Positions 2,844-29,290 of a stretch of 64,000 nucleotides of DNA are shown one piece after another. Location: NCBI GenBank assembly GCA_025210735.1, contig JAOARD010000022.1:1-64000 (forward strand), given 5' to 3'. The notes under the pieces are model-generated. The model had not been told where the DNA came from and ran no database searches. It was given only the letters and a program-made list of their open reading frames with translations. The position numbers and the translations under genes are program-made. The DNA comes from Bacteroidales bacterium. GTDB lineage: Bacteria; Bacteroidota; Bacteroidia; Bacteroidales; UBA6680. The number at the start of each line of letters is the position of its first letter. Within the stretch, counting starts at the first letter, position 1.

Positions 2844-3875
2844 TTAAAATTTATCCTTCAGTTTTTTTATTAATTCCATCAATTCAGTATGTACCCGAAA
2901 AGTTTCTTTAAAATCATCCAATTCTCTTGCAGTATTTTCAAGCACAATTAAGTTCATATCGGTCTGCGGATAATGATAACAAGCTGACACAAAACCTGGA
3001 GAATATCCAAATGCTCCGATTTCCGTATTACTTTCTCCGTCTTTAAAAAGCAAGCCATATCCATATTCTATTTTGTCAAATATCGGATGAAGTCTCGTGG
3101 CATACCTTGTTCTCATTAACGCCAAAGTCTTTTCATTTACCAGTTTTCCAGAATAAAGCAGAACATTCCATTTACTCAAATCTTCTGCATTAGAAATAAA
3201 CGAACCTGCTGGAACGTAATTTTTTAAACTATTTGTGCAATATTCCAATTCTCCGTTTTCTGATTCTTCATAGCCTTTTACAAGATCTCTATATTTTTTA
3301 TTATCTGGATGATAACTGTTTTTGAATCCATACTCAGCAAAAAGTTCGGTTGATATTTCATTAAATGTTTTTCCTGTTGCTTTTTCTAAAATTTGAGCCA
3401 ATAATTCATATCCTAACTGAGAATAACCAAACTGAGAACCTAACTCAAATTTCAATGGTTTATTTAAATCTACAATGCCGTGCGTATGAGTTAATAAATG
3501 ATGGATTGTTACCTCATTAGCCCAAGACTGCTTTATATCAGGTAAGTACTGAATGATTTTATCATTTAGCTTTAAATTCCCCTTTTCGTACTCTCTCAAT
3601 ATCAGGACTGCTGTTATCTGTTTACTTATTGAACCAATTACAAACTGATTCTCCATATTTAATGGAGTTTTGCTTTCTAAATCAGAAAAACCAAAAGCCT
3701 TTGAATAAATTGTAGTTGTGTCTTTTGTAACAAGTATAACTCCGTTAAATTTTTTGTTTCCTGAAATCGAATCAATTTTTACTATTAAATCATGATATTC
3801 TTTGTTTCCTGTTGACTCTGTATTTTGGCAAGAAACCAAAACTATTAACACTAAGATTATTATAATATTTTTCAT
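2844..3875 (-). CDS. Serine hydrolase, class C beta-lactamase / esterase-like lipoprotein
   Basis: A 343-residue protein with a lipoprotein signal ending VLVSC (Cys16). The beta-lactamase/transpeptidase-like fold is shown by SISK (Ser82, Lys85; the SxxK motif), YSQ (Tyr151; the YxN position, here with Gln), an HTH segment (LLTHTHG) and a late GYSPGF near the usual KTG position. Relatives include D-aminopeptidases and esterases, so true beta-lactamase activity cannot be assumed. The cassette starts with GTTGGGT (complement of 3933-3939), a perfect GTTRRRY core, but its own attC is missing at the 3' end. The last codons (KKLKDKF) lie in sequence also found at 32344-32367. Confidence 0.8.
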   Translation of the reverse strand: MKNIIIILVLIVLVSCQNTESTGNKEYHDLIVKIDSISGNKKFNGVILVTKDTTTIYSKAFGFSDLESKTPLNMENQFVIGSISKQITAVLILREYEKGNLKLNDKIIQYLPDIKQSWANEVTIHHLLTHTHGIVDLNKPLKFELGSQFGYSQLGYELLAQILEKATGKTFNEISTELFAEYGFKNSYHPDNKKYRDLVKGYEESENGELEYCTNSLKNYVPAGSFISNAEDLSKWNVLLYSGKLVNEKTLALMRTRYATRLHPIFDKIEYGYGLLFKDGESNTEIGAFGYSPGFVSACYHYPQTDMNLIVLENTARELDDFKETFRVHTELMELIKKLKDKF

Positions 3876-3936
3876 TTAAAATCTATCCATTTTAATTACT
3901 TCTGTGAATTTAGTAAGTGCTCCCAAAACGACACCC

Positions 3937-4027
3937 AACGCCACACTATACCCTGTTTGAATTTAGAAGTAGAAATGCTTCCAATTGCACAAACCCAAAT
4001 GGGGTATAAACGATTGTTACATGGCAT
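3937..4027 (-). other. attC-like site 2 (higBA cassette)
   Basis: Outer arms: caacgccacactataccc (3936-3953) against the complement of ggggtataaacgattgttac (4001-4020). The core GTTACATGGCAT (4016-4027) is the exact complement of the cassette start ATGCCATGTAAC (4747-4758). Here attC joins the next cassette directly, with no junction repeat, and the next core reads GTTGGGT. Confidence 0.75.
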
Positions 4028-4028
4028 C

Positions 4029-4334
4029 TTAGATTTGGATTGATATGTTAACCTTTCCACCAAGTCCTTTCTCAACTATGTCAAATAGCGTCTTCAGCGT
4101 AATATTGCTTCCGTCATTCTCAACTCTAGAAATGTAGCTGCGCTTTTTTTCAATCAATTTAGCAAGGTCTTCTTGAGTCAAGTTCTTTTTCATTCTTGCC
4201 TCACGAAGTAGAATACCAATTTTAAACGCTTCAAAGTCTCTGTCAAGTTCGTCTCGAACAGCAGTGCCTTTTTCTCCAAATTGTTCGTCTTTAATTTGCG
4301 ACCAAGTCTTAATATTACCTTTTTTATTTTTCAT
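4029..4334 (-). CDS. HigA-like XRE antitoxin
   Basis: A 101-residue protein. An N-terminal extension (to about residue 40) is followed by a helix-turn-helix of the HTH_3/XRE type (LREARMKKNLTQEDLAKLIEKKRSYISRVEND in short segments), then a C-terminal GKVNISIQI strand. It follows the toxin gene with a 4-base overlap, the toxin-first order typical of higBA. It should neutralise HigB and repress the pair. It is the second gene of a 743-bp cassette that holds nothing else. Confidence 0.85.
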   Translation of the reverse strand: MKNKKGNIKTWSQIKDEQFGEKGTAVRDELDRDFEAFKIGILLREARMKKNLTQEDLAKLIEKKRSYISRVENDGSNITLKTLFDIVEKGLGGKVNISIQI

Positions 4335-4675
4335 CGTTTTACCTCCTCAAAGTATTCATTCATTAGTCTTACTGCTTTGTCAATTTCTTTCTTTGGCGTC
4401 TTTTGAGTCTTCTTTTGGAAGCCATTTAGAAGTATGACAAGCTTTCCATTGTCAAAGAAGCAGAATACTCTCCAGATATTCTTACCTAATGAGAACCTGG
4501 TCTCATAAAGCCCTTTTGTCCCTTCAATGTGTTTCAAGTATTTAGAAGGAATTTTTTCTTGAAACTCAACCAGTTCTAAAATCTTATAAATCTTTGCTTT
4601 AACCTTATTTGATTGAGACTTAAGGAACTCCTCAAAATAATGCTTATAGGTAATTATCTGTCGTACTGGCTTCAC
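4331..4675 (-). CDS. HigB/RelE-type toxin (Gp49-like family)
   Basis: A 114-residue protein of the phage-derived Gp49-like/HigB group of RelE-fold mRNA interferases. Typical elements are the early basic helix (FLKSQSNKVKAKIYKIL), the central LYETRFSLGKNIWRVFCFF strand pair and the FQKKTQKTPKKEIDKA helix. The toxin is expected to cut mRNA on the ribosome. Overlap with higA points to translational coupling. Toxin-antitoxin cassettes are known to stabilise integron arrays, which fits this location. Confidence 0.85.
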   Translation of the reverse strand: MKPVRQIITYKHYFEEFLKSQSNKVKAKIYKILELVEFQEKIPSKYLKHIEGTKGLYETRFSLGKNIWRVFCFFDNGKLVILLNGFQKKTQKTPKKEIDKAVRLMNEYFEEVKR

Positions 4676-4758
4676 TTTTCTGTATTTACAACAAAGGTAA
4701 CTTATAAGTTACATCGATACAAGTAAAATTTGAATTATTATTAGGTATGCCATGTAAC

Positions 4759-4922
4759 ATCATGATAAACCAACTTATTGTAAAAATATTGTATGTGTAT
4801 ATCCAACTATTAATCTAGTGGTCGGGTTGTCCCGAGGCACCTTGCCACTTGCTAACAGTTCGGTTTACCTCCGCCTGTTCAGGACTTACATCCTATAGTT
4901 AATACCCATGCCGGGCACACAC
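4759..4922 (-). repeat. Junction repeat copy 2 (internally deleted)
   Basis: It runs from atcatgataaaccaac to the group II-like end (minus strand GTGTGCCCGGCATGG). Compared with long copies it lacks everything between the two gataaaccaac motifs, consistent with recombination between those direct repeats, so the TACATTTG box is lost. The segment between ccaactatt and agtggt is also absent. Confidence 0.8.
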
Positions 4923-4999
4923 GATTGGGCTATGAAACGTTACTCTCTGTGTTGCGCCTGCCGCGAGCCTATGCTTTATAAGCCATTGTTGAATACAGG
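4923..4999 (-). other. attC-like site 3 (Fic cassette)
   Basis: attgggctatgaaacg (4924-4939) pairs imperfectly with the complement of atgctttataagccattg (4971-4988). The centre (tactctctgtgttgcgcctg...) closely resembles sites 12 and 13. The core is GTTGAAT (4988-4994), a good GTTRRRY. The matching cassette start was not found, probably removed with the mini-intron insertion at 6174-6431. Confidence 0.7.
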
Positions 5000-5007
5000 T
5001 GTTTTTT

Positions 5008-6063
5008 CTATTTCTTGATAACTCTCCAATGGCCAGTTTTATCACTTCCAATGCGTTCTATTTGCCCACTTTCTTTAAGCGATTTTATTTTGCGTTTAGC
5101 TGTACTTAAACTCACTTTCAAGTGTTTGCTAATTTCTACAGCTGTAATTTTATTATTATTCTTTATTAAACCCAATACAGTGTCATTTACAGTGTCACCA
5201 CTACACTTTACAGTGTCATCTTGGCCTTTTACAGTATCAATGTAATTAACATGCATTTCTCGGTTTTTGAACTCGTGATTCTCATCTAATATTAAGTTTG
5301 AAAGAAAATTAATCAGGTATTTTTCTGTTTTATGAATTCCTTTCGACAAATCTTCGTAGTTTGCTCGAACTAAAGCATTTCGAAAATACAATGAATGCTT
5401 CTCAAATAATCCATTGTTAACATCTTTAAAGCCAAGCTTACGAAGGTATTTTATTAAGAAAATTGCTGTTGTTCTGGTATTACCTTCTCCAAAAATGTGA
5501 ATTTGCCATAAATAGCTTGTAAAATGAGCTATATGTTCTATTATTTCTCGCTGGTTTAAACCTTTGTAACTAAACTTCTTCTCTTGTTCAAAATCATATT
5601 CAAGAGTTACTTTCAAACTCTCGGCACTTGCATACAAAACAGTTTCTCCGTCTAATATCCACTCTTTTTTTGTTATGTTATAATCTCGTATTTTACCTGC
5701 ATAGTTGTATATATCTTGAAACAACCTTCGATGAATAGTGAGGTATTCAGCTGGTGAAAATGTAAAAGTTTGCTCATTTAAAATTTCTGCAATTCGTGCA
5801 GAAACTTTGTCAGCTTCCTCAGTTCTATTTTTAGCATCTTTTACAGGGCTTTCTTCATAATAACTATCGATTCTTTGTTTTACCTCATCAATAGATATAT
5901 CACCTTCAATATTCTGTTTAGCAGTTGCTATTAAATATTCCGAAGGCTTTAAACCATCAACCTGTTGTAAACCAATAGCAGTTTTCCAAACTTTTGCTTT
6001 TTCAGCCTTATTGGGTTCTCCCTGTCTTAAATATTCATCAAAATTATCCATTGAGTATCTCAC
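5008..6063 (-). CDS. Fic-domain protein with C-terminal winged helix
   Basis: A 351-residue protein. The Fic core carries HIFGEGNTRT at 189-198 (consensus HxFxxGNxR; the usual Pro is Ile and the second Gly is Thr). A C-terminal HTH follows (about 290-350, ITAVEISKHLKVSLSTAKRKIKSL). Fic enzymes transfer AMP or other nucleotide groups to target proteins, often as toxins. The linker carries three near repeats of DTVK/DTVN, from an 18-base-like repeat around 5178-5245. It is the only gene of its cassette. AMP transfer itself is inferred from the family. Confidence 0.8.
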   Translation of the reverse strand: MRYSMDNFDEYLRQGEPNKAEKAKVWKTAIGLQQVDGLKPSEYLIATAKQNIEGDISIDEVKQRIDSYYEESPVKDAKNRTEEADKVSARIAEILNEQTFTFSPAEYLTIHRRLFQDIYNYAGKIRDYNITKKEWILDGETVLYASAESLKVTLEYDFEQEKKFSYKGLNQREIIEHIAHFTSYLWQIHIFGEGNTRTTAIFLIKYLRKLGFKDVNNGLFEKHSLYFRNALVRANYEDLSKGIHKTEKYLINFLSNLILDENHEFKNREMHVNYIDTVKGQDDTVKCSGDTVNDTVLGLIKNNNKITAVEISKHLKVSLSTAKRKIKSLKESGQIERIGSDKTGHWRVIKK

Positions 6064-6173: not shown

Positions 6174-6431
6174 GTCGAGTAAAGCAAGATACAAAAAGAA
6201 TTCGTACCTCCACCCTCTCACAGTTCTACTGAGTTATGTCAAAGTACCACAGTACGTTCCTACCAGTATATGGGGGAGCGATAAACATGGCGATTTTTTT
6301 GCTGCTCTTCATTAAATAAATACCGGGAAGTATCAGGATACCCCGAGGCACCTTGCCACTTGCTAACAGTTAGGTTTACCTCCACCTGCTCAGGACTTAC
6401 ACCTTATGGTTAATACCCATGTCAACCACAC
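6174..6431 (-). mobile_element. Mini group II intron 1 (ORF-less, 258 nt)
   Basis: On the minus strand it begins GTGTGGTTGACATGGG (G at 6431) and ends ...TTTACTCGAC at 6174. The first 100 nt match the domain I-like part of the junction repeats (tgctaacagttaggtttacc, plus strand). The 3' part holds a degenerate domain V (GAACGTACTGTGG arm) and a domain VI-like hairpin (GTACGAATTC...TATCTTGC) before CTCGAC. The RT/maturase and most of domains I-IV are missing. The structure and deletion junction match the copy at 13535-13791. It sits right after the L' arm of attC site 4 and has replaced the expected GTT of the Fic cassette. Confidence 0.7.
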
Positions 6432-6523
6432 AGGTTTAGTATAAGAAACATAAGTGATTTCAAGCACTTATCTGTCAATTTGCACTGAGCCACTTATGTT
6501 TTTTATACATTGTTGTAAGCTGG
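6432..6523 (-). other. attC-like site 4 (PhzF module cassette)
   Basis: tttagtataagaaacataag (6435-6454) is the imperfect complement of cacttatgttttttatacat (6491-6510). The core GTTGTAAGC (6512-6520) pairs at 7 of 9 positions with the cassette start near 9547-9555 (complement GTTATAGGC). Confidence 0.65.
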
Positions 6524-6611
6524 TGTTCCTCTTAAATGGTAATCCATATCAAGTTTGTAATATTTTATTTATAAATCCTAATCAATCTGTACTGACCTTG
6601 ATACGGAGTAC

Positions 6612-6639
6612 GAATTTATTTTGTTTTTTTGTGCGCGGG
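6612..6639. repeat. Inverted repeat, left copy, of the PhzF module
   Basis: gaatttattttgttttttt followed by gtgcgcggg. The inverted partner is at 9408-9435. The same inverted pair bounds the restriction cassette (20872-20902 and 28320-28347). The 150 bp around this copy also resemble the end of the restriction cassette, e.g. the shared ctgtgggcaa. Confidence 0.55.
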
Positions 6640-6699
6640 AAAACCCTAATACACTGTGGGCAATTCCACTATTCTCTTATATCATGTGTCACCTTAGTT

Positions 6700-6990
6700 T
6701 TACAATTTCACAATCAAACGTTCAAAACCAGTATAGGGTAATAATTCATTTATTTCGAATTTAATATAGTTATGTTCAACCAAAGGAAATTTGCTGAGTA
6801 TTACATCTGCTTCAATTTTATCCTTGCATTCTAAAATTAGTACAGCACGTTTATCTTCGTTAAAATGGATTTCACGCAGAATACCTTGCTTTTGCAATAT
6901 ATACACATGTTCTGCCTCCTCCCTTAAAATCGCCTTAGCATTATTCCAGTTTTTGCCTTCAATTTCTTGTTCAATTGCCAGTATTTTCAT
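6700..6990 (-). CDS. Small muconolactone isomerase-like / YciI-like protein
   Basis: A 96-residue protein with a single alpha/beta ferredoxin-like domain: MKILAIEQEI strand, EEAEHVYILQKQGILRE helix, RAVLILEC strand and the ending ELLPYTGFERLI, which is typical of muconolactone isomerase-like small proteins found beside oxidoreductases. It overlaps phzF by 4 bases (ATGA). The reaction is unknown. Confidence 0.6.
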   Translation of the reverse strand: MKILAIEQEIEGKNWNNAKAILREEAEHVYILQKQGILREIHFNEDKRAVLILECKDKIEADVILSKFPLVEHNYIKFEINELLPYTGFERLIVKL

Positions 6991-7778
6991 TTCACTATGA
7001 TTTTACCTTTTAAATATAATACCACCTTCCCTGCAATTCCTGTTCTTTCTTTTTTTAAGTTACAGGTTAAATATCCTGATCTTTTAGATAGCTGTATAGC
7101 TTCGAGTTTTGTTTTATTTAAGCGTTTCGCCCAATATGGAGTCAGAGTTGTATGTGCAGAACCAGTAACCGGATCTTCATCAATACCGCTTTGAGGGGCA
7201 AAAAACCGAGAAACAAAATCGCAATCTTTCCCTTTCGCTGTAACAATGACACCTCGGCCATCAGCGTTCGACAATACTCTAAAATCAGGTATGATAGTCT
7301 CAATATTCGTTTGTGACTCATAAACTAAAAGATAATCGGTTTTACCTTTGTAACATTCTTGGGGTGCAATATTTAGACCATTCTTTATTACCTCCGGTAA
7401 ATTACATTCTTGGTATTGGTCGGTGGGAAAATCCAACTCAAGTAGACCATTATTGAGTTTGTTAACAAACAAATCGCCTGATAGATGCGAATAAAAATGT
7501 ACTTTAGTAACTGCGATTTTATGTTCATGAATTAATATATAAGCACTAGCCAGAGTAGCATGTCCACATAATTCAACTTCTACTAATGGTGTAAACCACC
7601 TTATTTCATACAAATTGTCTCTTTGAACAAGAAAAGCTGTTTCTGCCAAATTATTTTCAGCAGCAATATTTTGCATTATATTGTCATCTATCCATTCATT
7701 CAATATACACACAGCTGCCTGATTTCCTAAGAAGAGCTCATCAGTAAAAGCATCCAGTTTATAAATGTTTATTTCCAT
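6987..7778 (-). CDS. PhzF family isomerase/epimerase
   Basis: A 263-residue protein of the PhzF (diaminopimelate epimerase-like) fold. It shows YKLDAFTDELFLGNQAAVCIL at the start, the catalytic Glu in NNLAETAFL (about residue 45), GHATLASAYIL and the C-terminal half motif DPVTGSAH. Members isomerise small cyclic or amino acid-derived compounds; the substrate here is unknown. It sits between a flavodoxin-like gene and a small isomerase-like gene in one minus-strand operon, with overlaps at both ends (7759-7778 and 6987-6990). Confidence 0.85.
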   Translation of the reverse strand: MEINIYKLDAFTDELFLGNQAAVCILNEWIDDNIMQNIAAENNLAETAFLVQRDNLYEIRWFTPLVEVELCGHATLASAYILIHEHKIAVTKVHFYSHLSGDLFVNKLNNGLLELDFPTDQYQECNLPEVIKNGLNIAPQECYKGKTDYLLVYESQTNIETIIPDFRVLSNADGRGVIVTAKGKDCDFVSRFFAPQSGIDEDPVTGSAHTTLTPYWAKRLNKTKLEAIQLSKRSGYLTCNLKKERTGIAGKVVLYLKGKIIVK

Positions 7779-8286
7779 CTGTTTGTTTTAATTTATTTGT
7801 AAATATTTCAAAAGCTTTTTGGGTTAACCGTTCACCAAATTTCCAACACCTTTCATAATCCAATGTATTGGGTAATGGCTTGTTTTGGGAAACTGCACCA
7901 AAATGTATTATAGGTGCACCTTCTGTAATGCCGCTTGAATAAACTAGCATGCCACATACCAACAACTCTGCTATCATCGACATGGCAGCAAAACTAGCTC
8001 CACCGCCACCAGGCTGGTTTTGCGACACGAAAACACCTCCAAGTTTTCCAATTAAAGATTTAGGATGATAATCGAGATACTGTTTTATTTGCCAGCAACA
8101 GTTTCCACAATATGTTGGTGAACCAAACAATACAATATCTGAAGTTTGTACAAATTTATCATCAACAGCATCAACAGCCATTAATTTTACATTCACATCG
8201 TTATGTGTTTTACATCCCTCGGAAATAACCTCGCCCATAGTTTTTGTATTTCCCGATTTTGAATAATAGATAATTGAAATGTTCAT
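7759..8286 (-). CDS. Flavodoxin-fold NAD(P)H:quinone oxidoreductase (WrbA-like)
   Basis: About 175 residues with the FMN phosphate-binding loop YYSKSGNTKTMGE right after the first strand, the aromatic loop FGSPTYCGNCCWQ and QNQPGGGGASF, which is common in WrbA/NQO-like flavoproteins. It probably reduces quinones or nitro compounds with FMN. The frame is open to 8304 (MFKKMS...). I prefer the Met at 8286, which places the first beta strand at the N-terminus; 8292 is equally possible. It is divergent from the lysR gene at 8367, a usual sign of control by that regulator. Confidence 0.75.
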   Translation of the reverse strand: MNISIIYYSKSGNTKTMGEVISEGCKTHNDVNVKLMAVDAVDDKFVQTSDIVLFGSPTYCGNCCWQIKQYLDYHPKSLIGKLGGVFVSQNQPGGGGASFAAMSMIAELLVCGMLVYSSGITEGAPIIHFGAVSQNKPLPNTLDYERCWKFGERLTQKAFEIFTNKLKQTDGNKHL

Positions 8287-8366
8287 ACTCATTTTTTTGA
8301 ACAAACATAAATGTTTATTTTAGATACCGAAAATGCATTATAAGTATTAGAAAATACCTTTTGAGT

Positions 8367-9245
8367 ATGATTGATTTAAGACATCTTAAGTATTTTATGG
8401 TTTTAGCTGAGGAACTACACTTTGGAAGGGCTGCCGAAAAATTATTTATTTCACAGCCACCACTTAGCAGACAAATTAAGCAATTAGAAGAACTGTTAGG
8501 CGTACCTCTTTTTATACGAAACAATAAGAAAGTTGAACTTACCCGTTTTGGTAGTTTCTTAAAAGCTGAAGGAGAAAAAATATTTACAGAAATGCTACAG
8601 TTAGAAAAAAACATTCAGCTTATGAAAGTCAACGATGAAGGTACTGTTAGAATTGGATATGTTGGAGCTGTAATGTTTTCAGTTTTTAAATCAATCTTTG
8701 TACAATTAAAATCTGCATTCCCGAAACTACAATTTGTTCTCAACGAACTTAATAATGAATCGCAAATTGATGGGCTAAGAAGAAATATGCTTGATATTGG
8801 GTTTATCAGAGGGCCGCTTGATGTTAATGATTTATCGTACTATACTATTGAACAAAGTTCGTTCTCAATAATAATATCAGCTAACCATGAATTAGCAAAC
8901 AAAGAAAGTATTGCTTTGTGTGATTTAGCTACAGAACCGTTTATACAATTTTCAAAAATATGTGCTCCTCCCTTACATAAAAGCATTGATAATATTTTTA
9001 CAAATGAGAATATTGAGCCTCTGGTAGTGCACGAAACCAGCCAGTTCTCTGCTTTGGTGCGTCTTGTAGAAAGTGGCTTTGGTTATTCAATTGTTCCTAC
9101 AAATCTGGAACAAGGCTTTGATATTGGGGTAAAATATTTTGATATACCCAACTGTAAAGAAAAAACTGAAATAGGAATGATTCATAATTCCAAATATAAA
9201 ACCATGTTACTTGATAATATTATAGATAGGATTAGAAGCATGTAA
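8367..9245 (+). CDS. LysR-family transcriptional regulator
   Basis: About 292 residues. The winged HTH at 1-60 (LRHLKYFMVLAEEL, AAEKLFISQPPLSRQIKQLE, LGVPLFIR) is followed by a LysR substrate-binding domain to the end. I choose ATG 8367 (MIDLRHLKYF) rather than the in-frame TTG at 8361 because this is the family's normal first motif. It is the only clearly plus-strand gene in the cassette array and faces the flavodoxin-phzF operon across about 80 bp that probably hold its operator. Confidence 0.9.
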   Translation: MIDLRHLKYFMVLAEELHFGRAAEKLFISQPPLSRQIKQLEELLGVPLFIRNNKKVELTRFGSFLKAEGEKIFTEMLQLEKNIQLMKVNDEGTVRIGYVGAVMFSVFKSIFVQLKSAFPKLQFVLNELNNESQIDGLRRNMLDIGFIRGPLDVNDLSYYTIEQSSFSIIISANHELANKESIALCDLATEPFIQFSKICAPPLHKSIDNIFTNENIEPLVVHETSQFSALVRLVESGFGYSIVPTNLEQGFDIGVKYFDIPNCKEKTEIGMIHNSKYKTMLLDNIIDRIRSM

Positions 9246-9407
9246 AATTATATTTTGAAATCGGTCAATTGTTTTTGACCTTATGATTTTGTAAAGCTGG
9301 ATAATGTAGTTTAAAAATAGCTCTTTTGTAAACTTTGGTTTGCAGGACTGGCTTGCAGCAGTTTGCAAATGTGCTGTTTTGTGCGGTGGGGTTTCATTGT
9401 CTTTGCA

Positions 9408-9435
9408 CGGGGAGAAAAAACAAAATAAATCCCCC
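9408..9435. repeat. Inverted repeat, right copy, of the PhzF module
   Basis: cggggagaaaaaacaaaat continues aaatcccc. It is the inverted counterpart of 6612-6639. Together they bound a 2.8-kb segment with the lysR, flavodoxin, phzF and isomerase-like genes. The stretch 9246-9552 around it has no convincing gene. Confidence 0.5.
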
Positions 9436-9552
9436 TCAAACTGCACCACCCTATCAGCGGAGTACCTGTCCAATCAATTCGTTTTTTATAATTATTTCAA
9501 TTTCTTTTATCGTATCAATGTGTCGAGTTGGTGTTTCTCCACGCTTGCCTAT

Positions 9553-9681
9553 AACGGTTTGGCTATACTCAGTAAGGGATTTCAAAGCACTTCCGTTTCA
9601 ATTTATTACAAATTCTTATTACTTGCATTATCTTTCAATTTACCACTTAAACCCTTATTGGGTATGGCTTTTGTTACCTGC
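9553..9681 (-). other. attC-like site 5 (Zn-ribbon cassette)
   Basis: aacggtttggctatactcag (9553-9572) followed by taaggg is the imperfect complement of cccttattgggtatggcttt (9652-9671) followed by tgtt. The core GTTACCTGC (9673-9681) is the exact complement of the cassette start GCAGGTAAC (10477-10485). The next core in minus-strand direction is GTTATAGGC. No junction repeat is present here. Confidence 0.75.
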
Positions 9682-9691
9682 TGGCATTCTT

Positions 9692-10459
9692 TTACGAATT
9701 TGGTGATAATGTTGAAATCAATCGACATTTATCACATTTGAAATCATAAAATCCATGTAGCTGTTTATTTAAATTCCATTTATTGCCACAACTTGGACAA
9801 GGTCTTGTCAATTGGTCTCCTTTAAACTTTTTGTAATTATACAAATAGTAAAAAGTTGGAATCGAAGTTAATTCCTCGATTTTCCTACAAATTTCAAGTC
9901 CTTGTTTTGATAGTTGTGAAGCTATTTCCTGCATTTGATTTAACGCCCAACGTTCTCCAACTTCACAATTCATTTGTAAATTGTCACAAGAAATGTAATT
10001 TGTTTCCCAACTCAATAATGGCATATATCCATAGTCGTAGTACTCAGGTAGTCGGTAAAGTGGCACCGCTTTATTACAAGTTCCGCAAGTTAATGGAGAT
10101 TCAATGGAGACATAATTTGTAATGAGGATGTAGAAGTCCGACTTTTTACATATACAGGGTGTCTTATAGCTGTCATAAGATTTACCAACTGTATTAAATG
10201 TTAGTTTGGAATTGCAAAGCTTTTCTATTTTCTCACTCTGTCTATTTACGTAGAAGTTATTGAATTTCTTGTCAAGTGAGTGTTTTTCAAGTGTAAAAGG
10301 CAAACAAACTATTTTGTTATTTTCGATATACTGAGATTCGATTCTTCCTTGTGCCTGTCCACTACCACGATAGAAAGACATTAGTAAACTAAACTCGTCA
10401 ATAAGCTCATCTTTGTCTGCTTTGGTATTTATGTCAATTGATATTTCTTGAATGTACAT
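9692..10459 (-). CDS. Zn-ribbon protein, DUF2310-like
   Basis: A 255-residue protein with Cys pairs at CICKK, CGTCNK, a C-terminal CPSCGNKW and CDKC, which fits a zinc-ribbon nucleic acid-binding protein of the DUF2310/COG4332 type. Family assignment is from memory of the overall pattern (MYIQEISIDI start, GERWALNQM core). Function is unknown. It is the sole gene of a cassette with perfect R'/R'' cores at both ends. Confidence 0.6.
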   Translation of the reverse strand: MYIQEISIDINTKADKDELIDEFSLLMSFYRGSGQAQGRIESQYIENNKIVCLPFTLEKHSLDKKFNNFYVNRQSEKIEKLCNSKLTFNTVGKSYDSYKTPCICKKSDFYILITNYVSIESPLTCGTCNKAVPLYRLPEYYDYGYMPLLSWETNYISCDNLQMNCEVGERWALNQMQEIASQLSKQGLEICRKIEELTSIPTFYYLYNYKKFKGDQLTRPCPSCGNKWNLNKQLHGFYDFKCDKCRLISTLSPNS

Positions 10460-10485
10460 AGTCGTTGTTTATGCTTGCAGGTAAC

Positions 10486-10772
10486 ATCATAATAAACCAA
10501 CCAGTTCAGTTTATTAAACCAATATTTGTAGTTGGTTTATTGCTCTAACAAATGTAATAAAATTACTTGTAACTCTTTGTTGCATTACTTTTTATTATGT
10601 TCTGTTTTTAGGATAAACCAACTTATTGTAAAAATATTGTAGGTCTGTATATCCAACTATTATTCTAGTGGTAGGGTTGCACCGAGGCACCTTGCCACTT
10701 GCTAACAGTTCGGTTTACCTCAGCACGTTTAGGACTTACACTCTATAGTTAATACTCATGCCGGGCATACAC
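10486..10772 (-). repeat. Junction repeat copy 3 (short form)
   Basis: The complete AT-rich tail with caaatgtaataaaattactt (minus-strand TACATTTG) is present. About 105 bp between ccaactattattct and agtggt are absent, and the group II-like end reads GTATGCCCGGCATGAG on the minus strand. It lies exactly between attC 6 and the cassette start GTTACCTGC. Confidence 0.85.
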
Positions 10773-10868
10773 GTTGGCGCTATGAATAGTTGCCGATTGC
10801 GGGTTATTTCTCTGTCCAGTTACGCTGAACTGAATACGGGCTATTGCCTTTATAAATTGTTAGCTATT
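10773..10868 (-). other. attC-like site 6 (membrane-protein cassette)
   Basis: ttggcgctatgaatagttg (10774-10792) is the imperfect complement of tattgcctttataaattg (10842-10859), with tgcggg/atacggg inside. The core GTTAGC (10859-10864) matches the cassette start GCTAAC (11730-11735). Confidence 0.7.
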
Positions 10869-10873
10869 CGACT

Positions 10874-11485
10874 TTATTCAGTTTCGTTGAATTCATTCTT
10901 TATTATCCAAAGTTCATGTCCAATCGTATCGTTCTTATTCTCATAACGAATTAAATCAAACTTATTATTAACTGTCCCAAATCTTGACGGCATAATCAAT
11001 GCAAAATCGTAATACGAAGTGTCACCTCGTGGCAGATTAACATTGCTAAAATAAATAGTATCATTGATTATTTCAAAATCTCCGTCTATCTCTGAAACTC
11101 CAAAACAAACACTTCTCTCGACAAACTTATTGTTCTCTTTTAATTTGAATGTTGTCATACAATTTGCAGCTCCTTCTCTTTGTGCAATCAATAAGTCTTG
11201 TCCTGAGAACTTATCAAAATCCACTAATCCATAAGGTTTAAGTAAAGTAATAATCAAGATGCTTAACACAAAAACAATAGTGAAAATCCGATACTTTTTA
11301 GTAAATCGTTCTCTAATCGCTAGAATCAATTGTCTTAACAATCCAATTGCTAAAACAATGTATCCAATTACAAGTATCAAGAAAGCTAGCATTGCAAGTA
11401 TCCCAAGCTTTCCCTCCCAAAAGCAAGTCGTATTCACTAAAAGGAAGAAAATCAGTGAGGATAGAATAAGTAACTTGTTTTTCAC
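10874..11485 (-). CDS. Membrane protein of unknown function
   Basis: A 203-residue protein with three hydrophobic segments at the N-terminus (LLILSSLIFFLLV, LGILAMLAFLILVIGYIVLAIGLL and IFTIVFVLSILIITLL) and a soluble C-terminal half of about 110 residues (MTTFKLKENNKF, DTIYFSN). I do not recognise the family. It is the main gene of a 0.9-kb cassette. ATG 11485 is used; the preceding 250 bp hold only the small frameshifted frame described next. Confidence 0.5.
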   Translation of the reverse strand: MKNKLLILSSLIFFLLVNTTCFWEGKLGILAMLAFLILVIGYIVLAIGLLRQLILAIRERFTKKYRIFTIVFVLSILIITLLKPYGLVDFDKFSGQDLLIAQREGAANCMTTFKLKENNKFVERSVCFGVSEIDGDFEIINDTIYFSNVNLPRGDTSYYDFALIMPSRFGTVNNKFDLIRYENKNDTIGHELWIIKNEFNETE

Positions 11486-11512
11486 AATCTTATCGTTTAC
11501 GTTTGGTTTGAT

Positions 11513-11706
11513 TCATTTTTTTGTTTTACCAGTAATCTTTTTTTCACGCTTCTCTATCTTGTGCAATATTAAGATACCAATCAAATTTGGAATCAATACT
11601 AAATGCTTAAAATAGTTAAATTATGTCTAAGCCTGAAAATCACGATACAAACCAAGATAATCAAGTTTAATAATCCTATCCATTTAAATGCTTTATCATC
11701 TGTCAT
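11513..11706 (-). pseudogene. Short two-helix membrane ORF with apparent frameshift
   Basis: An ATG at 11706 opens MTDDKAFKWIGLLNLIILV... for 35 codons to a TAG at 11599. In the overlapping -1 frame the coding sense goes on as KHLVLIPNLIGILILHKIE... to a TGA at 11513. The two halves together would make a plausible small protein with two membrane helices, so I infer an indel near the tttaactatttt stretch (about 11608-11616). It may instead be a real 35-residue peptide. Confidence 0.35.
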
Positions 11707-11735
11707 ATTGTGATGTCTTGTAGCTGACCGCTAAC

Positions 11736-12134
11736 GTCACAATAAACCGACCAATTCAGTTTATCAAACTGATAGATATAGCTGGTTTATTGTTCTAACA
11801 AATGTAATAAAATTACTTATAACCCTTAATTGTATTACTTTTTATTATGTTCTGTTTTTAGGATAACCCAACTTATTGTAAAAATATAGTAGGTGTCTAT
11901 ATCCAACTATAACTCTATAAAGTACAATGCTATTTCAACATAATTTATACAAGTACAGATTTTTGCAATCTGGTTTTACTCATATCTGATCTCTCTGTTT
12001 TGAATTCGTGAATACTTAGTATTCCTTCAGTGATCGGGTTGCCCAGAGGCACCTTGCCACTTGCTAACAGTTCGGTTTACCTCCGCCTGTTCTGGACTTA
12101 CACCTTATAGTTAATAACCATACCGGGCACACAC
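11736..12134 (-). repeat. Junction repeat copy 4 (full length, about 399 bp)
   Basis: The full form: tail with two gataaaccaac-like motifs and caaatgtaataaaattactt, then tatccaactat, a segment ending aaaacagagagatc (minus strand) and the group II-like 5' end (minus GTGTGCCCGGTATGG). The group II-like stretch includes gcaagtggcaaggtgcctc and TAAGTCCAGAACAGGCGGAG. It lies between attC 7 and the cassette start GTTAGCGG. Confidence 0.85.
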
Positions 12135-12321
12135 GAGTGGCGGTATGAAACGTAGGCGTTTTAGAAGCGATGAACTTTCAAGTTTCTAAGTAGCCAAATC
12201 TGCGATTTGACTTCGCTATCTTTTCGTCAACTCAACCGTCAAATTGCAGATTTGGCGGAGCCTACTAAAAGCTACAAAACTTCGCTAACCTACGAACCGC
12301 CAATGTTTTATAACGTGTGTC
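12135..12321 (-). other. attC-like site 7 (DUF4172/Fic cassette)
   Basis: gtggcggtatgaaacgtagg (12137-12156) pairs with the complement of cctacgaaccgccaatgttt further in (12289-12308). The interior has a 19-bp perfect stem: GCCAAATCTGCGATTTGAC (12193-12211) with GTCAAATTGCAGATTTGGC (12238-12256). The core on the cassette side is atypical (GTGTGTC instead of GTT). Confidence 0.65.
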
Positions 12322-12338
12322 AGAGCCTGTACATTCCG

Positions 12339-13436
12339 TTAATCAAGCACTAATTCATAATTAGTACTTCGTCCGCCAGAATCATCTTGTTTAAGAATCT
12401 CTTTATCTATTAAATCCTTAATATCTCTTAGAGCAGTATCTTTTGAACACTTTGTCATTTTTGCCCATTTAGAAGATTTGAGTTTCCCTTCAAAACCATC
12501 AAAAAGCCTATTAATCATCAGTCTTTGTCGAGAATTTATTGCGGTCTTTTCATGCTTGTTCCAAAATAGAGCTTTTTGCAAGATGTTTTGAACTTTCAAA
12601 TCAGCTGACTTTATTGCATTGTACAGACATTCTAAATACCAAATTATCCATTCTGTTATATCTCCACTGCTATATTGTACTTTTTGTAAAGTTGAATAAT
12701 ACTGTTTTTTTTCTTCTAACAACTGATTAGACAGACTGTAAAATCTTAAAGGACTATTTTCTGAACGAGCTAATAACAAATCCGATAAAGCTCTCGATAT
12801 TCTACCATTACCATCATCAAATGGATGAATTATAATAAACCAGAAATGAGCTATTGCAGATTTAACAACTAAATCAAGTTTTGCTTCGGTGTTTAGCCAA
12901 ACAATTAGTTTGTCCATTTCTGATTTAACATTTTCTGACTTAGGCGCCTCATAATGCACTTTTTCCATTCCCATCGCACCAGAGACTATTTGCATTCCTC
13001 CAGTCCGATATTTAGCAACATCAATTTGAGTCATACCACTCCAACCAGTTGGAAATAAACATGAGTGCCAACCAAATAATCTTTCTTCTGTAATTTCGTT
13101 GTTAAATTTCTGGGTTGCATCAAGCAACATTTCAACAACTCCTTCGACATCTCGCCTTGTGTTTTCAACACCAACATGTTCTATTCCTAACCTTTTTGCT
13201 ATTGAAGAACGAACATGTTCTGGGTTTAATATTTCTCCTTCAATTTCAGATGATTTTACCACATCTAAAGTTAAAGTAGAAAGAATAGTCTCTTCTTTTA
13301 CAGTGAATCCTAAAGTACTAATTTGTCCATAAATCCTACCTTGAAGATGTCGAAGTTTACCTAAAAGATTTTGAACTTCTTTTTCATCCCAAGTAAAATT
13401 AGGCCAACTCGCATATTGATAAATATATTTTGCCAT
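12339..13436 (-). CDS. Fic family protein with DUF4172-like N-terminus
   Basis: A 365-residue protein. The N-terminal domain (about 1-110, FTWDEKEVQNLLGKLRHLQG) resembles DUF4172 and holds SSEIEGE, which matches the inhibitory (S/T)xxxE(G/N) motif of self-inhibited Fic proteins. The Fic core has the canonical HPFDDGNGR at 204-212. A C-terminal winged helix (about 300-365) follows. It is expected to AMPylate or otherwise modify a target protein when inhibition is relieved. It is the only gene of the cassette; the mini-intron at 13535-13791 lies upstream, where its cassette core should be. Confidence 0.85.
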   Translation of the reverse strand: MAKYIYQYASWPNFTWDEKEVQNLLGKLRHLQGRIYGQISTLGFTVKEETILSTLTLDVVKSSEIEGEILNPEHVRSSIAKRLGIEHVGVENTRRDVEGVVEMLLDATQKFNNEITEERLFGWHSCLFPTGWSGMTQIDVAKYRTGGMQIVSGAMGMEKVHYEAPKSENVKSEMDKLIVWLNTEAKLDLVVKSAIAHFWFIIIHPFDDGNGRISRALSDLLLARSENSPLRFYSLSNQLLEEKKQYYSTLQKVQYSSGDITEWIIWYLECLYNAIKSADLKVQNILQKALFWNKHEKTAINSRQRLMINRLFDGFEGKLKSSKWAKMTKCSKDTALRDIKDLIDKEILKQDDSGGRSTNYELVLD

Positions 13437-13534
13437 AATATTAAATTATGCGATAAATATACGAATTATTCATCGCATATTTAAGGAGATTATTGCTTTT
13501 TTTTGACGCATCAACTCTCCTCGTATTGCCGCTA

Positions 13535-13791
13535 ATCGAGTAGAGCAAGATACGAATTCTTTTCGTATCTCCACCCTCTCACAGTTCTACTGAGTTATGT
13601 CGATGTACCACAGTACGTACTGGTTGGTATACGGCGGAGCGATAAACATGGCGATTTTTTTGCTGCTCTTCATTAAATAAATACCGGAAGTATTAGGATA
13701 CCCCGAAACACCTTGCCACTTGCTAACAGTTAGGTTTACCTCCGCCTGTTCAGGACTTACACCTTATAGTTAATACACATGCCGGGCACAC
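13535..13791 (-). mobile_element. Mini group II intron 2 (ORF-less, 257 nt)
   Basis: The minus strand begins GTGTGCCCGGCATG at 13791 and ends CTCTACTCGAT at 13535. The 5' part (about 100 nt) equals the domain I-like part of the junction repeats. The 3' part has a domain V-like stem (CGCCGTATAC, loop, GTACGTACTGTGG), then CTGTGAGAGGGTGG and a domain VI-like hairpin (GATACGAAAAGAATTCGTATC) before the terminal AT. These are standard features of a bacterial group II intron 3' end. No reverse transcriptase is present, and domains I-IV are mostly deleted. It lies directly after attC 8. The deletion junction is the same as in mini-intron 1. Confidence 0.75.
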
Positions 13792-13917
13792 ATGTCTCGA
13801 ATATGCGTAGTGCGGGCTTTACAACCCTACCCTTCCAAACAGCAATGTCGTTTATTAATCTCTTATTTCTCAATATGAGCTAGAAATTCCGCTTACGTAT
13901 AGCTTGTGTTATCGATA
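13792..13917 (-). other. attC-like site 8 (cassette of the 354-residue unknown)
   Basis: ctcgaatatgcgtagtgcgg (13796-13815) pairs imperfectly with the complement of ccgcttacgtatagcttg (13889-13906). The core GTTATCGATA (13908-13917) is the exact complement of the cassette start at 14996-15005. Confidence 0.7.
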
Positions 13918-14983: not shown

Positions 14984-15005
14984 TCCATATTCTATTATCG
15001 ATAAC

Positions 15006-15401
15006 ATCACAATAAACCAACCAGTTCAGTCTATTAAACCAATAGATATAGTTGGTTTATTGTTCTAACAAATGTAATAAAATTACTTATAACCCTTTAT
15101 TGTATTACTTTTTATTATGTTCTGTTTTTAGGGTAACAACTTATTGTAAAAATATTGTAGATGTCTATATCCAACTATTACTCTATAAGTACAATGTTAC
15201 TTCAACCTAATTTATATAAGTACATGATTTTGCAGTCTGGCTTTACTCATCTGTGATCTCTCTGTTTTGAGTTCGTGAATACTTCTTATTTCTTCAGTGG
15301 TAGGGTTGTCCCGAGGCACCTTGCCACTTGCTAACAGTTATGTTTACCTCCGCCTGTTCAGGACTTACACCTTATAGTTAATACCCATGCCGGGCACACA
15401 C
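15006..15401 (-). repeat. Junction repeat copy 5 (full length)
   Basis: A full copy of about 396 bp in the standard order: tail with caaatgtaataaaattactt, tatccaactattactc, a segment with gagttcgtgaatacttctta, and a group II-like 5' end (minus GTGTGCCCGGCATGGG). It sits exactly between the TIR cassette's attC and the GTTATCG of the next cassette. Confidence 0.85.
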
Positions 15402-17389: not shown

Positions 17390-17423
17390 TCGTTCATATT
17401 GAGTTGTTTAAACTACCGTTAAC

Positions 17424-17793
17424 ACCACGATAAACCAACCAGTTCAGTCTATTAAACCAATAGATATAGTTGGTTTATTGTTCTAACAAATGTAATAAAA
17501 TTACTTATTACCCTTTGTTGTATTACTTTTTATTATGTTCTGTTTTTAGGATAAACCAACTTATTGTAAAAATACTCTATAAGTACAATGCTATTTAAAC
17601 CTAATTTATACAAATACAGGGTTTTGCAGTCTGGTTTTACTCATATCTGATCTCTCTGTTTTGAATCCGTGAATACTTCGTATCTCTTCAGTGGTAGGGT
17701 TGCCCAGAGGCACCTTGCCACTTGCTAACAGTCCGGTTTACCTCCGCCTGTTCATGACTTACACCCTATAATTAATACACATACCGGGCATAC
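17424..17793 (-). repeat. Junction repeat copy 6
   Basis: A full-type copy with a small deletion (gtgtctatatccaactat missing after gtaaaaata). The group II-like end reads GTATGCCCGGTATG on the minus strand. The TACATTTG box is conserved (plus caaatgta). Confidence 0.85.
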
Positions 17794-20222: not shown

Positions 20223-20311
20223 ATTAATTCCTTTTAAATGTTTTGACAAAATTCTCAATTCTCAAAACGTAATGAAACCCGATTCTTGCGGTTTTTAAAA
20301 TGCCCTATAAC

Positions 20312-20711
20312 ATCACGATAAATCAACCAATTCAGGTTATCAAACCAGTAGATATAGCTGGTTTATTGTTCTAACAAATGTAATAAAATTACTTGCACCC
20401 CTTTGTTGTATTACTTTTTATTATGTTCTGTTTTTAGGATAACCCAACTTATTGTAAAAATATAGTAAGTGTCTATATCCAACTATTATTCTATAAAGTA
20501 CAATGTTATTTCAACCTAGTTTATACAAGTACAGGGTTTTGCAGTCTGGCTTTACTCATATGTGATCTCTCTGTTTTGAATTCGTGAATACTTCGTATCT
20601 CTTCAGTGGTAGGATTGCCCCCGAGGCACATTGCCACTTGCTAACAGTTAGGTTTACCTCCGCCTGTTCAGGACTTACACCCTATAGTTAATACACATAC
20701 CGGGCATACAC
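20312..20711 (-). repeat. Junction repeat copy 7 (full length, about 400 bp)
   Basis: A full copy between the restriction cassette's attC and the start (GTTATAGGGC) of the decarboxylase cassette. It includes tail, TACATTTG, ccaactattattctataaag, gcagtctggctttactcata and the group II-like end (minus GTATGCCCGGTATG). Confidence 0.85.
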
Positions 20712-28446: not shown

Positions 28447-28475
28447 ATATCCTATCTGTTGTATATAATGCATAC

Positions 28476-29290
28476 CAGTGATATGTAGAGCCAAACTAAT
28501 AACATTGTAATGCTACCGAATGAGATGTAGCACAAAACAGTGCATTGTAATCCAAAACCAGTGATATGCAGAGCCAAACTAACTACATTGTAATGCTCCC
28601 AAATAACAATGTAGCGTCAAAATAATATCATTGTAATCCAAAACCAGTGATATGTAGAGCCAAACTAACGATATTGTAATGCTCCAGAATGAGATGTAGC
28701 GTCAAAATAGTGGCATTGTAATCCAAAAACAGTGATATTTAGAGCTAAACTAACAACATTATAATGCTCAAGAATGATATGTAGCGTCAAAACAGTGCAT
28801 TGTAATCCAAAACCAGTGATATGTAGAGCCAAACTAACAACATTGTAATGCTCCCGAATGAGATGTAGCGTCAAAATAGTGGCATTGTAATGCAAAACAA
28901 GTGATATTTAGAGCTAAACTAACAACATTGTAATGCTCCAGAATGAAATGTAGCGTCAAAATAGTGGCATTGTAATACAAAACAAGTGATATTTAGAACT
29001 AATCTAACAACATTGTAATGCTCCCGAATGACAATGTAGCGTCAAAACAGTGGCATTGTAATGCAAAACCAGTGATATGTAGAGCCAAATTAACGACATT
29101 GTAATGCTCCCGAATGACAATGTAGCATCAAAACAGTGGCATTGTAATCCATAACCAGTGATATTTAGAGCCAAACTTACTACATTGTAATGCTCCCGAA
29201 TGAGATGTTGCGTCAAAACAGTGCATTGTAATCCAAAACCAGTGATATATAGAGCCAAACTAACTACATTGTAATGCTACCGAATAATAT
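28476..29290. repeat. Minisatellite, about ten 85-bp units
   Basis: The unit starts cagtgatatgtagagccaaa and continues with actaac, an acattgtaatgctcc box, gaatgagatgtagcgtc and aaaacagtggcattgtaatcc. Unit starts are at 28476, 28559, 28645, 28730, 28814, 28899, 28984, 29070, 29156 and 29240, so spacing is 83-86 bp. Units differ by point changes. acattgt/acaatgt allows a hairpin in several units. Frames crossing it shift from unit to unit and are not genes. Confidence 0.95.

Follow-up and report, generated by a model that had tools for sequence, protein, structure and literature searches.

How the same internal deletion came to be present in two intron remnants at unrelated places in one array of gene cassettes is the question raised by this locus. 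The window, that is, the whole stretch of 64,000 nucleotides of Bacteroidales DNA that was analysed, contains two short elements, here called A and B, each of which begins and ends like a group IIC intron:

6174..6431, minus strand: element A, a gutted group IIC intron of 258 nt, with its 5' end at 6431 and its 3' end at 6174
13535..13791, minus strand: element B, a gutted group IIC intron of 257 nt, with its 5' end at 13791 and its 3' end at 13535
6342..6431, minus strand: retained 5' portion of domain I in A, about 90 nt, common to 17 other copies
13702..13791, minus strand: retained 5' portion of domain I in B, about 90 nt

Both start with GTGTG...CATGGGTATTAAC and finish with CTCGAY; neither contains an ORF, and the class C reverse transcriptase/maturase of domain IV is absent. 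BLAST finds 87-89% identity between A and B across essentially the entire element, and in the alignment, which matches them end to end, the interior holds a stretch of about 50 identical nt. A and B are the remains of group II introns that have lost their middles alike. A preliminary description of this DNA had reported twin elements of 258 and 257 nt, derived from group II introns and sharing one deletion. The elements and their ends were correctly identified, and common descent of the deletion is borne out by a shared interior between unrelated flanks. The further statement that both ends and nothing else were kept is right for the ends only, since A and B also have in common some 65 nt of interior, which takes in the domain IV/V boundary, as well as a 24-nt insert in J5/6. 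Homologous flanks had been named as the mark of a simple segmental duplication. There is no homology on either side, and duplication of a segment holding A and B is rejected for this reason and because the Fic proteins encoded next to them differ.

A, B and the genes on both sides of them all lie on the minus strand, and each element is inserted at GT|TRRRY, the end of an attC-like site (R' box), on the strand of the cassette genes. The immediate neighbours are as follows:

6432..6519, minus strand: attC-like hairpin upstream of A (AACAATGTATAAAAAACATAAGTG...CACTTATGTTTCTTATAC), about 87 nt, which folds better than shuffled sequences (z -2.7)
13792..13917, minus strand: attC-like site of the cassette upstream of B, whose R'' TATCGATAAC at 13917 matches the cassette start TTATCGATA at 15004
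5008..6063, minus strand: cassette gene after A, encoding a Fic/DOC protein of 351 aa; the same cassette follows a mini-intron in the sister genome G002
12339..13436, minus strand: cassette gene after B, encoding a DUF4172-Fic protein of 365 aa

The preliminary description was correct in placing the two behind different attC sites: A follows the hairpin of about 87 nt, and B adjoins the R' end of the site that belongs to the cassette starting at 15004, with its R'' at 13917. The two Fic proteins are of different kinds, and BLASTP finds nothing useful between them (E 0.02 over 55 aa). The surroundings of A and B are a genuine cassette array. Four of the seven cassette starts tested match their own R'' box (RYYYAAC) over 8-9 nt, against a background at random TT sites of 0.7% for 8 nt and 0/300 for 9 nt. 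In the assembled contigs of the three genomes searched within the genus, no integron integrase scored higher than the TIGR02249 cut-off, and the array is CALIN-like. A tandem array of about ten 85-nt units occupies positions 28450-29290 of the window.

A and B belong to a larger population. The window's genome and the sister MAG UBA6680 (G002) together contain eighteen elements with the same 5' end; a nineteenth row of the 5'-end listing, C16:44866, is a chance match and was left out. Sixteen of the 18 have a CATA box beginning 12-14 nt ahead of them, compared with a background of 1.3%. This distance was used in place of folding for the upstream attC sites, as a fixed 100-nt window gave no clear overall signal (mean z -0.68 versus -0.30 for the control), probably because many attC sites are longer than 100 nt. 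Both ends are kept in seven elements (A, B, C60_1, C60_2, C16, G002:C140 and G002:C79), among which there are five different internal deletions: one common to A and B, another to C60_1 and C60_2, and one each in C16, C140 and C79. Many further intron 3' ends occur in both genomes, some of the A/B subtype and some of a second subtype. In the intron-like rows of the listed 3' ends the following exon begins with T; the listing was made with a loose pattern, and several of its other rows are chance matches. Beyond these two genomes, the search of the genome collection for further copies returned the sister MAG UBA6680 only, viral contigs and phages held none, and a Bacillus smithii plasmid contained one 44-nt match to the 5' end.

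The search for a full parent, which the preliminary description had proposed, was successful in part. G002 contains an RT-bearing relative of full length (G002:C132:1-1960), which has RVT_1 and GIIM domains and belongs to the second subtype; the two draft genomes, the second of which is a MAG, yielded no full-length copy with the A/B 5' end. No RT of the group II kind is assembled in the window's genome. The genome does contain a maturase fragment (C76) and two contigs, C44 and C47, that stop inside the same intron ORF remnant, and these suggest that full-length copies exist there and were collapsed in assembly. The sole RVT_1 match in its assembled sequence is an RT-containing ORF of about 540 aa with a YCDD motif (G000:C61, about 3743-5362), which by its look is not a group II intron protein. 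One candidate trace of the lost coding sequence was also rejected. The stretch ATGAGTAAAGCC...CCTGT of the longer copies had been considered a remnant of the intron-encoded protein (IEP) left by a single founder ORF deletion; it belongs to domain I, because the C16 copy runs on from it into sequence resembling domain I of the full-length relative (AGACTGCAAAATTTGGTACCGACGAACAGGAACAGCATATGAGGC). Likeness to the IEP C-terminus is limited to the following ...ACAACAATAACC... of C60_1 and C60_2.

The following parts of the ribozyme are recognised toward the 3' end of A and B:

6247..6276, minus strand: domain V of A, with CCC rather than CGC at the triad position and 3 of 11 pairs broken
13608..13637, minus strand: domain V of B, with the CGC triad kept and 1 of 11 pairs broken (C-U)
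6221..6246, minus strand: J5/6 of A with the 24-nt insert (...CATAACTCAGTAGAAC...)
13582..13607, minus strand: J5/6 of B with the 24-nt insert
6176..6220, minus strand: domain VI stem of A, from the consensus fold
13537..13581, minus strand: domain VI stem of B, from the consensus fold

A domain V/VI fold, which the preliminary description had also called for, was obtained: both domains are recovered in a consensus fold of nine 3' ends. Compensatory changes affect 8 of its 28 pairs, all of them in domain VI, the stem of which precedes a 3' end in AY (CTCGAC or CTCGAT). Folded singly, A and B do no better than shuffled sequence (z 0.58 and -0.61). In class IIC introns domain V measures about 34 nt and has a CGC (or AGC) triad and conserved pairing. 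It is intact, with its CGC triad, in other copies of the family; B keeps 10 of the 11 pairs and A only 8, one of the broken pairs of A being in the triad itself. Part of the sequence difference between A and B is due to an inversion, as the domain VI hairpin of B has at its tip the exact reverse complement of the sequence found there in the other copies. Such hairpin-tip inversions, with the stem kept, occur in domains V and VI and distinguish B (13551-13570) from the others, and C60_1 from C60_2.

The core of domain I and domains II-III are gone from A and B, leaving about 90 nt of the 5' side of domain I. Over the window, Rfam gives no group II match in the array and neither RF02001 nor RF00029 in A or B; RF02001, the domain I model, does match the full-length relative and a pair of shorter introns in G002. 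In IIC introns EBS1 and EBS3 sit in the domain I core, precisely the portion that is missing, and retrohoming by the known route is therefore not expected of A and B. Judged from their sequence, it is implausible.

The 24-nt J5/6 insert is present at 17 places in the window's genome and at 4 in G002, almost invariant and in two intron subtypes, and is otherwise represented by one match with 3 mismatches among 393 genomes of the order; it is essentially restricted to this genus. The canonical copies C44, G002:C132:2820 and G006 are without it. The shorter introns of G002 just mentioned are a pair of 294-nt ORF-less group IIC introns (G002:C165:64082-64375 and 108405-108698) behind two different terminator-like hairpins. 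Both RF02001 and RF00029 match them at full length, and on these matches the pair would be a better candidate than A and B for a very small, possibly active intron.

Half of the population takes a different form. Nine of the 18 elements consist of the 5' part of the intron fused to an AT-rich, attC-like element, without the intron 3' half (domains V and VI). Those in the window, with the positions of the AT-rich element, are:

4758..4920, minus strand: composite of intron 5' fragment and AT-rich attC-like element
10485..10770, minus strand: composite of intron 5' fragment and AT-rich element
11735..12132, minus strand: composite of intron 5' fragment and AT-rich element
15005..15399, minus strand: composite of intron 5' fragment and AT-rich element
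17423..17793, minus strand: composite of intron 5' fragment and AT-rich element
20311..20709, minus strand: composite of intron 5' fragment and AT-rich element
2630-2850, 4758-4820, 10485-10680, 11735-12020, 15005-15290, 17423-17700 and 20311-20600: AT-rich element

The composites occupy nine different cassette boundaries in the two genomes, sit exactly between G and TTRRRY, and in several cases share junctions. Their AT-rich element, which looks like a second type of attC, ends in G directly ahead of the next cassette start. It is about 300 nt long (short at 4758) and has GTTGGTTTATYRTGAYG as its end just before cassette starts. In C40 and G002:C139 it is joined to 3' pieces of introns in antisense, and at 2844 it directly follows a gene, without any intron piece. 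As the composites have been copied to many boundaries without an intron 3' half, such copying needs no activity of the intron RNA, and the same can hold for A and B.

The reading that we prefer, with a probability of roughly 0.62, is that A and B are dead, internally deleted IIC introns whose deletion was passed between sites as DNA and not by retrohoming of the 257-nt form. In essence, full-length, RT-bearing introns of the lineage would have made the original site-specific insertions at attC sites, after which the intron middles would have been lost in several different ways. The A/B deletion would then have moved as DNA, either by ectopic recombination or gene conversion between intron copies or by recombination within the cassette array. 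The identity of the ends, the insertion rule, the other deletions elsewhere, including that at the A site of the sister species, and the loss of the domain I core are direct observations.

The sister species provides the most informative comparison. The Fic351 cassette behind A is also present in G002, with 92% identity over 1640 nt reaching into the preceding mini-intron, and that mini-intron has another internal deletion, and another attC upstream, than A. Most simply, an intron already occupied site A before the two species separated, and A gained the A/B deletion, or passed it on, afterwards. Near its ends A has derived bases in common with the G002 copy (positions 7 and 225), whereas its middle is shared with B (the interior and positions 60 and 181; the base at 60 is also seen in one composite). 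This mosaic is the pattern that gene conversion would produce, on the strength of two derived end sites and few sites in all. No empty site was found in the sister species, as the cassettes have turned over between the genomes. Since no empty site and no full-length A/B-type copy turned up, the order of events is not seen directly, and nor is the parent of the A/B subtype.

These results bear on the central proposal of the preliminary description, that A and B are mobile mini group II elements. The description is upheld only in part, and this proposal is not supported, in view of the loss of the domain I core, the broken triad of A and the different deletion at the sister A site. The description had argued that a shared deletion means that the shortened form moved after it arose. 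Spread between sites is upheld by our results and RNA-level movement in trans is not. It had offered copying in trans by an IEP, or transport as part of a cassette, as the means; DNA-level copying suffices, as the recurrence of composites without a 3' half illustrates. Against DNA copying stands the case of Thermosynechococcus elongatus, where an ORF deletion shared by 17 introns has been explained by spread in trans (PMC2882425).

An unlikely, though not negligible, alternative is that the intron-attC fusions are mobile ORF-less cassettes and that both-ended minis such as A and B were passed round the array with them. A more specific form, for which we would give slightly poorer odds, treats the intron pieces as the 5' ends of ORF-less integron cassettes running from TGTGTGCC to the G of the AT-rich element and moved by an integrase, with A and B travelling or recombining as their neighbours. 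The exact placement of the composites between G and TTRRRY at nine boundaries, with shared junctions and no intron 3' end, is what such cassettes would give, and the turnover of other cassette content between the two genomes and the AT-rich element that follows a gene at 2844 without an intron piece are in keeping with them. However, the units start with TG and not TT, no integrase passes TIGR02249 in any of the three genomes searched, and A and B end in an intron 3' end rather than an attC-like element. If true, mobile intron-attC cassettes would offer a direct view of intron-driven cassette formation.

It is improbable, in our estimation, that the 257-nt form moves as a non-autonomous retroelement, with the RT/maturase of a full-length IIC intron in the same cell acting in trans to copy it into new attC sites. 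The same deletion at two unrelated attC sites, an intact IEP in a close relative and the conservation of domain VI and the J5/6 insert among copies would all fit, and the ORF-less introns of T. elongatus, mobilised in trans, provide a precedent (PMC2882425). Those introns, however, lost domain IV sequence only, whereas A and B have lost domains II-III and the domain I core with EBS1 and EBS3. Furthermore, the triad of A is broken, neither Rfam model finds A or B whereas both the full-length and the 294-nt forms are matched, and the 257-nt form exists in just two copies in the two genomes searched.

Retention of the minis as functional RNA or DNA signals, for example as terminators, insulators or leaders of the following cassette, we consider very improbable. 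A and B each stand about 100 nt ahead of a cassette gene and their domain VI stems stay paired through changes, but whole-element folding is no better than that of shuffled sequence, most other cassettes have no both-ended mini, and the deletion types vary freely. Least probable of all is that A and B lost their middles independently, at a sequence hot spot in one and the same parent intron. The five deletion types do indicate that internal deletions happen often in this population, but part of the common interior of about 65 nt has no counterpart in any other copy, and A and B have further derived bases in common at positions 60 and 181.

The elements resemble known systems. Like the group IIC-attC introns of the S.ma.I2 lineage (PMC7923331, PMC4424553), they have a IIC 5' end, a CGC domain V in intact copies and insertion at GT|TRRRY beside an attC stem-loop, and truncated introns of that group in integrase-less cassette arrays are already known (PMC7923331). 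Group IIC-attC introns occupy R'' on the bottom strand and run against the cassette genes, whereas A and B occupy R' on the top strand, in the same direction as the genes. They differ further in the loss of the ORF and the domain I core, in the 24-nt J5/6 insert and in having many deletion types side by side. The ORF-less TeI3 introns of T. elongatus similarly exist in several copies, with one deletion that predates dispersal and with RT-bearing relatives. They have lost domain IV only, retain good EBS/IBS pairing and have experimentally demonstrated mobility (PMC2882425), whereas A and B are without the domain I core and domains II-IV. UHB.F1, in a soda-lake array rich in toxin-antitoxin genes, is likewise a truncated group IIC-attC intron within cassettes (PMC7923331), but it is truncated at the 5' end and opposite in orientation to the cassettes, whereas in A and B it is the middle that is missing and both ends remain. 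What is new in this locus is that the elements lie at R' on the gene strand, that they carry the J5/6 insert, that so many types of deletion occur side by side and that introns are fused to attC-like elements.

An internal deletion common to two intron copies is no proof of RNA-level mobility, and the interest of the locus lies in the whole population of intron wrecks, which merits a specialist's look. A part for group IIC-attC introns in the making of integron cassettes has been proposed (Leon and Roy, cited in PMC4424553 and PMC7923331). Two sister species in whose array the cassette boundaries abound in intron 5' ends, 3' ends and intron-attC fusions make this idea testable in one system. 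A further peculiarity of the introns themselves is that several, including the RT-bearing full-length copy G002:C132 (1-120), seem to have a large insertion in the apical loop of domain V (GAACCGCC...GTACGGTGGT, with about 50 nt between).
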